64,000 bases of DNA from Allosediminivita pacifica (lineage in GTDB: Bacteria; Pseudomonadota; Alphaproteobacteria; Rhodobacterales; Rhodobacteraceae). The notes beneath the pieces are model-generated. The model was not told where the DNA came from. It saw only the letters and a program-made list of their open reading frames with translations, and ran no database searches. The stretch is taken from contig NZ_QBKN01000021.1 in assembly GCF_003054175.1 (NCBI RefSeq), positions 1 to 64,000 on the forward strand, written 5' to 3'. The position numbers and the translations under genes are program-made. Shown one piece after another: positions 12,334-15,381 of this stretch; the stretch's first letter is position 1, and every line of letters starts with the position of its first letter.

Positions 12334-14529
12334 ATGCCCTACGCCCACTCCGACAAGTCCGAGCCCATCCTGCACGCCGCCGCGCCCGACGTGGCGACGC
12401 GCGAAAAGCTCGAGGGCGGCAAGCGCTTTGTCATGCACACGGAATACGCCCCGGCGGGCGACCAGCCGACAGCCATCGCGGAACTGTCACAGGGGGTCAT
12501 GGAGGGCGAGCACAATCAGGTCCTGCTCGGCGCCACCGGCACGGGCAAGACCTTCACCATGGCCAAGGTGATCGAGGAAACCCAGCGTCCCGCCATCATC
12601 CTGGCCCCCAACAAGACGCTGGCAGCGCAGCTATACGGCGAGTTCAAGCACTTCTTCCCCGACAATGCGGTCGAGTACTTCGTCTCCTACTACGACTACT
12701 ACCAGCCCGAGGCCTACGTGCCGCGCAGCGACACCTTCATCGAGAAGGAAAGCCAGATCAACGAGCAGATCGACCGCATGCGCCACTCGGCCACCCGCGC
12801 CCTGCTCGAACGCGACGACGTCATCATCGTGGCCTCGGTCTCGTGCATCTACGGCATCGGCTCGGTCGAGACCTACGGCGCCATGACCCAGGACCTGCAC
12901 GTAGGCTCTGAATACGACCAGCGGCAGGTCATGGCCGATCTCGTCGCTCAGCAGTACCGCCGCAACGACGCCGCGTTCCAGCGCGGCAGCTTCCGGGTGC
13001 GCGGCGACACCCTGGAAATCTGGCCCGCCCACCTCGAGGATCGCGCATGGCGCCTGTCCTTCTTCGGCGAGGAGCTGGAAGGCATCACCGAGTTCGATCC
13101 CCTGACGGGCGAGAAGACCAGCAACTTCGACCGCATCCGCGTCTACGCGAACTCGCACTACGTGACGCCCAAGCCGACGATGCAGCAGGCCGTCATCCAG
13201 ATAAAGAAGGAGCTGCGCCAGCGGCTTGACCAGCTCGTGGGCGAGGGCAAGCTGCTCGAAGCGCAGCGGCTCGAGCAGCGCACCAATTTCGACATCGAGA
13301 TGCTCGAGGCCACCGGCGTCTGCAACGGGATCGAGAACTACTCGCGCTATCTCACGGGCCGGGCGCCGGGCGAGCCGCCCCCGACGCTCTTCGAGTTCAT
13401 CCCAGACAACGCCATCGTCTTTGCGGACGAATCCCACGTCTCGGTTCCGCAGATCGGGGGCATGTACCGGGGCGACTACCGGCGCAAGTTCACGCTGGCC
13501 GAACACGGCTTCCGCCTGCCGTCCTGCATGGATAACCGCCCGCTGAAGTTCGAGGAATGGGACGCCATGCGCCCCCAGTCGGTCTTCGTCAGCGCCACGC
13601 CCGCCAACTGGGAACTGGATCAGTCGGGCGGCGTCTTCACCGAACAGGTCATCCGCCCGACCGGCCTGCTCGACCCGCAGGTCGAAATCCGGCCCGTCGA
13701 GATGCAGGTCGACGACCTGCTGGACGAGATCCGCCGGGTCTCCCAGGCGGGCTTCCGCACGCTTGCCACCGTGCTGACCAAGCGCATGGCCGAAGACCTG
13801 ACCGAATACCTGCACGAACAGGGCATCCGCGTGCGCTACATGCACAGCGACATCGACACCATCGAGCGGATCGAGATCCTGCGCGACCTCCGGCTCGGCG
13901 CCTTCGACGTGCTGGTGGGCATCAACCTTCTGCGCGAGGGGCTCGATATCCCCGAATGCGGGCTCGTCGCCATCCTCGACGCCGACAAGGAAGGTTTCCT
14001 GCGCTCCGAGACCTCGCTGATCCAGACCATCGGCCGCGCCGCGCGCAACTCCGAGGGACGTGTGATCATGTACGCCGACCGGATGACCGGCAGCATGGAG
14101 CGCGCCATCGGCGAAACCAACCGCCGCCGGGAAAAGCAGATCGCCTACAACGAGGAACACGGCATCACGCCCGCCACGATCAAGAAGAACGTCGAGGACA
14201 TCCTCGCCGGGCTCTACCAGGGCGACGTGGACATGAACCGCGTGACGGCCAAGATCGACGACAAGCACGCCGGCGCCAACCTGCAGACCATGCTCGACGG
14301 GCTGCGTACCGACATGCGCAAGGCGGCCGAGAACCTTGAGTTCGAGGAAGCCGCCCGCCTGCGCGACGAGATCAAGCGCCTCGAGGCCGTGGACCTCGCC
14401 GTCGCCGACGACCCCCTCGCCCGCCAGCAGGCGGTCGAGAAGGCCTCGGCCGAGGCCACGAAGTCGAAGGGTCGGAGCACCTCCGGCAAGCCGGGCCAGC
14501 GCGGCGGCAATGTGAAACGCAAAAGGTAG
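12334..14529 (+). CDS. uvrB: Excinuclease ABC subunit B
   Basis: A 731-residue UvrB, the helicase-like damage-verification subunit of nucleotide excision repair; it loads on DNA with UvrA and recruits UvrC. Visible parts: Walker A GATGTGKT near residue 70, the beta-hairpin region ([13 protein letters not shown]) that inserts between the DNA strands, the DESH Walker B, helicase motifs V/VI ([18 protein letters not shown]), and the C-terminal UVR/UvrC-interaction helix ([15 protein letters not shown]). ATG 12334 is used because the N-terminus then matches the alphaproteobacterial form; upstream extensions are not UvrB-like. No LexA-type GTTC/GAAC repeat was seen upstream. The stop codon lies inside a REP palindrome. 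Confidence 0.97.
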
Positions 14530-14553
14530 GGTGCGTGCGAGCACGCACCCTAC
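14526..14553. repeat. REP-like palindrome on the uvrB stop codon
   Basis: GTAGGGTGCGTGC-GA-GCACGCACCCTAC has perfect 13-base arms around a two-base centre. It contains the uvrB stop codon (14527-14529) and the last bases of the convergent RAYT gene. A second copy with centre TC (opposite orientation) lies at 15076-15103. It may also serve as a bidirectional RNA hairpin ending both transcripts. Confidence 0.85.
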
Positions 14554-15035
14554 GGCCTGGCATGGGGGGTCGCGTCCGTCGACCGATGGATCGACGAATA
14601 GGGCCATGCCTCCGGGCACGTGACGAACCCGTGTTTCACCGGGCTATGCCAGCAATACTGGACGTGCGCCGCGTAATCCTCCGCGTTTCGGATATGGTGC
14701 TCCCAATAGCGCCGCTGCCAGATTCCGCGCTCCATCCGGGCCACATGGCTCGCACGCAGCGGCCCCTTCGGCAATCCGCGCGAAAATCGCGACTTGATCA
14801 ACCGCCAGCGCGTCGGGAAATCGCGATCCCCCTCGGGCAGGGTCCAGACGCAGTGCATGTGGTCCGGCAGAACCACCCAGGCGTCGACGGCGAAGGGGCG
14901 CTCGCGCCGCGTGGCAACGACGGCCCCACGCAAGCGGTCGATCTCACGCACCAGCAGATCCGACCCACGCTCGGCCAGTGTCACGGTAAAGAAGATGGTC
15001 GCGCCAGGCGCCCGCGGTCGGATGTAATTCGGCAT
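14550..15035 (-). CDS. REP-associated tyrosine transposase (RAYT, IS200/IS605-like Y1 family)
   Basis: A 161-residue single-domain Y1 transposase. The HUH motif appears as HMH in WVVLPDHMHCVW, and the C-terminal tyrosine-bearing helix region reads RRYWEHHIRNAEDYAAHV. It begins PNYIRPRAPGATIFFTV, as RAYT proteins do. RAYTs bind and nick single-stranded REP hairpins and are thought to have spread REP elements; unlike true insertion sequences they are usually single-copy. The gene lies between two oppositely oriented REP-like palindromes, the expected REP-RAYT-REP (REPtron) layout. It is convergent with uvrB, with the palindrome between them. All key residues appear intact. Confidence 0.9.
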   Translation of the reverse strand: MPNYIRPRAPGATIFFTVTLAERGSDLLVREIDRLRGAVVATRRERPFAVDAWVVLPDHMHCVWTLPEGDRDFPTRWRLIKSRFSRGLPKGPLRASHVARMERGIWQRRYWEHHIRNAEDYAAHVQYCWHSPVKHGFVTCPEAWPYSSIHRSTDATPHARP

Positions 15036-15075
15036 CCCCCAAGAGGGTCCGAAACAACGTTAAGACCACCCTCAC

Positions 15076-15103
15076 GTAGGGTGCGTGCTCGCACGCACCC
15101 CAT
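15076..15103. repeat. REP-like palindrome upstream of the RAYT gene
   Basis: GGGTGCGTGC-TC-GCACGCACCC has perfect 10-base arms, with weaker outward extension (T-A and G-T pairs after one mismatch). It matches the palindrome at 14526-14553 except for its inverted centre (TC for GA) and one altered right-arm base. It lies about 40 bases before the RAYT start on the minus strand. Confidence 0.85.
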
Positions 15104-15112
15104 AAAACAAAC

Positions 15113-15143
15113 ACAAAAAAACGCGGCCCCTGCAGGGACCGCG
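15113..15143 (-). terminator. Rho-independent terminator of the cold-shock gene
   Basis: On the minus strand a GC-rich hairpin (CGCGGTCCC-TGCA-GGGGCCGCG, one internal mismatch) is followed by eight consecutive T residues. It lies about 30 bases after the csp stop codon. Confidence 0.85.
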
Positions 15144-15174
15144 TCGCATCTCTCCGGAAAACCGGAAGAAGGCT

Positions 15175-15381
15175 TCAGAGCAGCTCGAGGTTCGTCGCGC
15201 TCTCACGGCCGTCACGACCGGATTCCAGATCGTAGGACACTTTCTGGTTGTCGGCGAGGCCGGTGAGGCCCGAACGCTCAACGGCGGAGATGTGCACGAA
15301 CACGTCTTTGCCGCCCGTCTCGGGTGCGATGAAGCCGAAGCCTTTGGTGGTGTTGAACCATTTCACAGTGCCGGTGGCCAT
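15175..15381 (-). CDS. Cold-shock domain protein (CspA family)
   Basis: A 68-residue single cold-shock domain with both RNA-binding motifs, KGFGFI (RNP1) and VFVHI (RNP2), within an OB fold starting MATGTVKWFN. Such proteins bind single-stranded RNA/DNA and melt mRNA structure during cold shock or stationary phase. Normal family length. The frame continues upstream of ATG 15381, but that extension is not conserved in character, so this start is used. It is monocistronic with its own terminator and a leader of unknown length upstream (15382-15648 holds no gene). Confidence 0.95.
   Translation of the reverse strand: MATGTVKWFNTTKGFGFIAPETGGKDVFVHISAVERSGLTGLADNQKVSYDLESGRDGRESATNLELL

Follow-up and report, generated by a model that had tools for sequence, protein, structure and literature searches.

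A probable REPtron at the 3′ end of uvrB in Allosediminivita pacifica, with related RAYT loci in Rhodobacteraceae

The 64,000-nucleotide stretch of Allosediminivita pacifica DNA analysed here (contig NZ_QBKN01000021.1, positions 1 to 64,000; hereafter the window) carries beside uvrB a module that, judged from its sequence, is very probably a REPtron: one RAYT gene lying between two inverted, GTAG-tagged REPs, accompanied by a few non-autonomous REP pairs elsewhere in the genome. An initial annotation had read this segment as a REP–RAYT–REP module inserted at the uvrB stop codon, with one hairpin possibly ending two convergent transcripts. That reading is partly supported; the module itself is borne out by the identity of the RAYT, by the inverted REPs and by the other REP pairs in the genome.

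The RAYT gene and its flanking palindromes

The uvrB gene occupies 12334–14529 on the plus strand (start 12334 was chosen by us; the longest ORF runs from 12247) and is convergent with the RAYT (TnpA-REP) gene at 14550–15035 on the minus strand, a complete ORF of 161 residues identified from the ORF list, an NCBIfam search and an alignment with the E. coli TnpA-REP structure 4ER8. The protein matched the curated NCBIfam equivalog model NF047646 (REP_Tyr_transpos) with 177 bits against a cut-off of 80 (E 1.9e-52), which places it among the RAYTs, and it aligned with 4ER8 over residues 3–152 at E 1.1e-42. It carries both features of a Y1 transposase, namely an HUH motif (HMH at residues 59–61) and a tyrosine, Tyr127, which pairs in the alignment with Tyr115 of 4ER8, a residue that we take to be the catalytic tyrosine. 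On this evidence the gene is an intact RAYT of the E. coli TnpA-REP type, and protein and NCBIfam searches found one such gene in the genome. A Pfam search of the same protein returned zero families, even at E up to 10; an annotation based on Pfam alone would overlook this gene. Located 5′ of the RAYT is a cold-shock protein (csp) gene at 15175–15381 on the minus strand, and between the two, 3′ of the cold-shock gene, stands a terminator-like hairpin with a T tail (15120–15145, minus strand).

Two palindromes enclose the RAYT. The left one, at 14526–14553 and without strand, is a double-tagged REP of 28 nt, GTAG-GGTGCGTGC-GA-GCACGCACC-CTAC, whose arms (14526–14538 and 14541–14553) form a perfect 13-bp palindrome around a 2-nt centre. 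The other, at 15076–15100 on the plus strand, is single-tagged, lies upstream of the RAYT with its tag on the RAYT side, starts 64 nt ahead of the RAYT start as counted by script, and is an inverted copy of the left REP: segments 14529–14554 and 15075–15100 are 100% complementary over 26 nt and lie 520 nt apart. The tags of both REPs face inward, toward the RAYT. A GT(A/G)G tag directly 5′ of the palindrome, which defines GTAG REPs, is therefore present, although one of the six units found in the genome has GTAA instead. The opposite centres (GA versus TC) described in the initial annotation were confirmed from the sequence and by a repeat search, as was the enclosed complete RAYT with its HMH motif; the GTAG tag, the inward tag orientation at both ends and the REP pairs at rpoA–rplQ and upstream of serA were absent from it.

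Folded as single-stranded DNA, the two copies on both strands gave −13.7, −13.7, −11.2 and −11.3 kcal/mol, with z values from −4.9 to −6.6, and in each of the four folds 0 of 200 shuffles was as stable. In the fold of the left REP, GTAG pairs with CTAC, and because its tag is paired in this way the left REP may be a poor substrate for the RAYT. Double-tagged perfect palindromes (GTAG...CTAC) also stand near other RAYTs (L008 2481–2510, L036 2108–2136 and L019 1955–1982), where, by sequence, the GTAG tag would likewise pair within the hairpin.

The left palindrome holds the uvrB stop and the 3′ end of the RAYT gene, as had been proposed: the uvrB stop TAG lies at 14527–14529 and the RAYT stop at 14552–14550 on the minus strand. 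Both stops fall inside the palindrome because the tag GTAG itself contains TAG.

REP units in the genome and RAYTs in relatives

Pattern searches covered the 4.85-Mb, 98-contig genome, with the reversed pattern as control. The palindrome core given in the initial annotation (at most 3 mismatches) occurred at 6 places versus 0 for the reversed control, and the tagged form gave 5 and 5 matches versus 0 and 0. Five REP units were recognised by pattern and a sixth by reading, a tally that more diverged units could escape; the six form three tail-to-tail pairs, and in the RAYT pair the gene lies between the halves. A second pair lies directly after the rpoA stop (C9:20075–20136) in the arrangement hairpin-CTAC-caaact-GTAG-hairpin, with 6 nt between the tags. 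The third consists of a unit at C20:95288–95315 and a neighbour read in L122, with 22 nt between them; it lies upstream of serA (D-3-phosphoglycerate dehydrogenase, by Pfam), its first unit carries the tag GTAA, and Pfam, searched at 0.001, gave nothing for the ORF tried on the far side. The rpoA–rplQ and serA pairs each have the form of a REPIN or TT dimer, that is, two inverted REPs at short distance. Two further matches were rejected as REPs, namely C14:22367, a palindrome without a tag, and C8:129450, where 3 mismatches break the stem at the match position itself.

The whole-genome count that the initial annotation had proposed, with the warning that a palindrome lacking other copies would argue against a REP family, thus returned a palindrome that recurs away from the RAYT locus at low copy. 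Six units do not amount to a high copy number, which is usual for GTAG REPs but is no requirement; a table in the available part of PMC2817692 gives 1/10/16 copies for one REP of one genome.

For comparison across genomes, the sample comprised 121, namely the window's own, 72 others of its family and 48 of its class. A RAYT was found at E 1e-20 in 26 of these, the window's included, all 26 within the family; the NCBIfam model matched in 36 of the 121 at E 0.001, of which 27 were over the cut-off. We gathered 110 RAYT loci, including the best 80 of 116 from one search; loci were kept regardless of genome or kinship, and two of them, L043 and L044, coincide in the tree. This quick tree, limited to loci whose match spans 125 residues or more, holds 109 of the 110, and 22 of its 105 inner branches are starred. 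It contains a 28-row clade of mainly gammaproteobacterial, mostly non-Rhodobacteraceae RAYTs; the other clade has 81 rows, and these plus the single locus that the tree omits are the 82 loci referred to below.

With the best 80 of 116 included, a GTAG-tagged hairpin lay within 250 nt of the RAYT at 78 of the 110 gathered loci and at 65 of those 82. Tagged hairpins on both sides were seen at only 22 of the 110, so inverted flanks are not universal, and the nearest upstream tagged hairpin points either way (21 and 16 cases among the 110). Under a strict rule, the RAYT ends on the TAG within a GTAG tag that a hairpin follows directly at 37 of the 82 loci (best 80 of 116 included; one of them, L072, is on a contig that ends before the RAYT stop) and at 0 of the 28 loci inside the 28-row clade. 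Under a looser stem rule the same holds for 42 of 109 closed loci, again with the best 80 of 116 included, and GTAG stands at 58 of the 109 stops; as background, among the 2300 GTAG sites that these loci contain (REPs counted) 344 have such a hairpin after them, as do 78 of 3300 positions taken at random. According to PMC3733652, it is common for the ends of GTAG REPs to contribute the TAG stop of a neighbouring gene, and REPs may sit immediately downstream of the rayt stop (PMC2817692).

The stem-label test used 77 of the 109 rows, those with a tagged palindrome within 250 nt. Stem class required 32 changes on the RAYT tree, against a shuffle mean of 51.6 and a minimum of 46; when GGTGCGT was set against all other stems in the larger clade (64 rows, 10 of them GGTGCGT), 2 changes were required against a mean of 9.4 and a minimum of 6. 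These values support, for the sequences compared, a stem type of the tagged palindrome that follows the RAYT tree, and they run counter to the possibility, raised in the initial annotation as one that would tell against a REP family, that the palindromes are unrelated to RAYT phylogeny. At the level of genomes, at least 8 matches of the tagged palindrome (both strands) were present in all 4 sampled genomes that have a GGTGCGT-type RAYT (G000, G018, G023 and G062) versus 2 of 117 others (Fisher p 1.8e-6).

There are exceptions. Genome G020 has 10 matches of the tagged palindrome though its two RAYTs have other stems, and G034, a 99% complete genome, has 17 GGTGCGTG REP matches (both strands) while protein and family searches found no RAYT in it, which makes its REPs orphans. 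Both cases tell against a simple rule linking stem and RAYT. Within the tree, L040 has a GGTGCGC stem though it is as near by path to the window's RAYT as L039, and a GGTGCGT stem also occurs in L096, which branches far away from that RAYT; SH-aLRT values of 81 and 89 in the quick tree give moderate support to the clade in which the window's RAYT falls. A plasmid search with the module returned 10 records at 60–80% identity, none covering 80% of the query; the five matches listed have 15–49% query cover and are annotated as transposase or rayT.

The uvrB and rpoA–rplQ sites

The claim of an insertion at the uvrB stop was taken up through the comparison of relatives' uvrB 3′ ends that the initial annotation had suggested. 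Among 59 uvrB loci found, 30 were read, including the window's, and 0 of the 29 others has a REP directly at the uvrB stop. An insertion defined to the base is less secure: uvrB ends in GTAG in 6 of the 29 relatives compared, and its TAG may for this reason be native to uvrB. Shortening of uvrB by the insertion was considered and rejected, since the protein ends in GGNVKRKR and many relatives are alike at the DNA level, others differing.

Several relatives have REPs or RAYTs further from uvrB. L129 (in G020) has two REPs of its own GGTGCGCT type 73–138 nt past the uvrB stop, and tagged hairpins stand 254–875 nt past it in L133, L141, L142, L152 and L153; a RAYT lies about 1 kb downstream of uvrB in L133 and L142, and at 550 nt in a third genome (L024). 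The RAYTs L015, L024 and L030, from three other genera, are found 550–1030 nt past the uvrB match and antisense to uvrB. In the tree these three RAYTs group elsewhere, in a starred part, with L024 on a long branch; RAYTs have therefore probably settled near uvrB on at least two occasions.

Loci were chain-linked into neighbourhoods when they had at least 2 ORF clusters in common, csp clusters not counting; the ORFs used include some that are antisense or spurious. The 110 gathered loci (best 80 of 116 included) fell into groups of 36, 15, 13, 9, 4 and 4, four pairs and 21 singles; the 13-locus group is of the other clade, and one 4-locus group lies near uvrB. In the first neighbourhood thyX is convergent, 0.9 kb away (L067), and thrS is upstream (L075), one locus having been read for each. 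The second, from one locus read (L041), has a convergent gene for a two-domain ABC ATPase, presumably an ABC-F protein. In the third, from one locus read (L038), rpiB is upstream and lepA convergent, with another ORF between. Among the gathered loci (best 80 of 116 included), the rows nearest by path to the window's RAYT are L037, L039 and L040, all of the third neighbourhood; L038, from that neighbourhood too, belongs to the same clade as the window's RAYT, as do L041 and L042 from the second. Because its nearest RAYT kin sit in another neighbourhood, with rpiB and lepA in the one locus read, the module, or the RAYT with its REPs, has probably changed place.

In 34 of the 110 gathered loci (best 80 of 116 included; 36 matches, all on the upstream side) the RAYT has a csp gene upstream, an odd adjacency that occurs in at least three neighbourhoods and in both orientations (for example L008, L041 and L063). 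The 36-locus neighbourhood contributes 22 of these loci and the 15-locus neighbourhood 9. A special RAYT–csp bond was rejected, since 31 of the 34 fall in these two shared neighbourhoods and mostly reflect common descent; 16 family genomes sampled had 1–3 csp genes each at E 1e-15.

The rpoA–rplQ spacer was surveyed in 33 genomes, 30 ranked by similarity and 3 chosen by us. A tail-to-tail pair with two GTAG tags was present in 4 of the 33, with GGTGCGTG stems in G000 and G018, GGTGCGCT stems in G020 and GGTGGG stems in G005, which has no RAYT; in all three RAYT-bearing genomes with a pair, its stem is that of a RAYT of the same genome, and for G018 the pair was also read directly. The pairs (L003 1499–1555; L161, L168 and L187) stand directly or a few bases past the rpoA stop. 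In ten others of the 33, including G023 with its GGTGCGTG-type RAYT, a RAYT is present and the spacer lacks this kind of pair; G044 has a pair with altered tags and with stems unlike those of its RAYT, and in the GGTGCGTG REP-rich G034 the spacer lacks a REP pair.

A tentative and rather doubtful extension is that, in this family, REP hairpins keep their places at gene 3′ ends while their stems are overwritten with the type of the RAYT present in the genome; a useful 3′ hairpin would then be kept while its sequence follows the transposase, and the RAYT stop inside its own REP would tie the gene end to the recognised element. The case is thin because only 3 of 13 RAYT-bearing genomes among the 33 have such a pair, and the pattern could come from new insertion at a favoured site as well as from rewriting of an old REP.

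Mechanism, alternatives and known systems

By analogy with experiments on other REPtrons, the RAYT protein would bind the GTAG-tagged hairpin in single-stranded DNA and cut at nearby dinucleotides such as CT, and it would thereby copy or move REPs in trans. The module would have reached the 3′ side of uvrB in the lineage of the window, where it may have been tolerated because the uvrB reading frame stayed intact, its TAG stop being either supplied or kept.

The palindromes could instead be ordinary terminators or mRNA 3′ stabilisers common to uvrB and the RAYT, with the REP likeness secondary, an account that we regard as improbable. As the RAYT is transcribed, CTTTTGCGTT comes after the left hairpin, which scored as terminator-like, and in several relatives another GC-rich hairpin stands, by eye, after rpoA where the window's genome has its REP pair. 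In the uvrB direction, however, the T-rich tail is absent, and a two-way intrinsic terminator would have one on both sides; moreover, the 2 terminator-like sites found in the stretch compare with 1.6 expected from shuffles, the other site being the one that ends the csp gene. The earlier proposal that one hairpin ends two transcripts is consequently weak, with a terminator-like site on the RAYT side alone, at chance frequency. A terminator needs neither a perfect 26-nt inverted copy across the RAYT nor a GTAG tag, and the same tag recurs with other stems beside other RAYTs. The left REP may act as an RNA 3′ hairpin.

An ordinary IS200/IS605-type insertion sequence moving as a unit would share the HUH and tyrosine transposase with hairpins at its ends, and it would suit a module whose site is unlike that of its nearest RAYT relatives. 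Such an element should occur as several copies of the whole unit, whereas this genome has one RAYT; most relatives' RAYTs lie in a few shared neighbourhoods, as expected of mostly vertical descent, and the REP_Tyr_transpos match is far above its cut-off, which together make this account very unlikely. Chance palindromes beside an unrelated gene have a negligible claim. Half-sites alone, with at most 2 mismatches, turn up readily in the window (5 versus 2.5 expected, no excess), but the reversed control of the full element gave 0 matches in the genome and 1 across all 121 genomes, which refutes chance for the full element, and the tagged palindromes within 250 nt at 65 of the 82 RAYT loci add to this. 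The REPtron reading is thus the one that we retain.

One RAYT and three REP pairs form a system small enough for every copy found to be tested, and at rpoA–rplQ the turnover of REPs can be compared between genomes at a single site. Bertels and co-workers reportedly published a paper on domesticated bacterial transposases in 2017. REPtrons and TAG stops supplied by GTAG tags are already known, and a search of the open-access literature found no account of RAYT/REP systems in Rhodobacteraceae; the present comparison places REPtrons in this family, with a clear link between stem and transposase and a few shared neighbourhoods. The available portion of PMC6006769 states that Alphaproteobacteria have none or few such genes per genome, and that of PMC2817692 that homologs were not found in major lineages beyond gammaproteobacteria, yet it names one betaproteobacterium. 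Neither Rhodobacter nor Roseo appears as a word in the main text of PMC3733652.

Among known systems, the E. coli REPtron (4ER8) is alike in its homologous protein, its HMH motif and tyrosine, and the GTAG-tagged REPs around the gene. According to the portions of the sources at hand, E. coli REPs need a stem bulge for activity (PMC8266576) and exist in many copies (PMC2817692), whereas the window's REP has a perfect stem with a 2-nt centre and its genome has 6 units found. Closer in form, as far as the available text extends, are the GTAG REPs of Di Nocera et al. 2013 (PMC3733652), which share the GTAG tag, short stem, short loop and tail-to-tail dimers, and which resemble the present units in lying at gene 3′ ends, in supplying TAG stops through their tags and in flanks that may overlap the transposase 3′ end. 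The Haemophilus and Thioalkalivibrio REPs of Nunvar et al. 2010 (PMC2817692), as described in the part available, likewise combine GTAG with a perfect GGTGGG- or GTCGG-type stem and a short loop, and in many cases they lie near or immediately downstream of the rayt stop, as the left REP does here.
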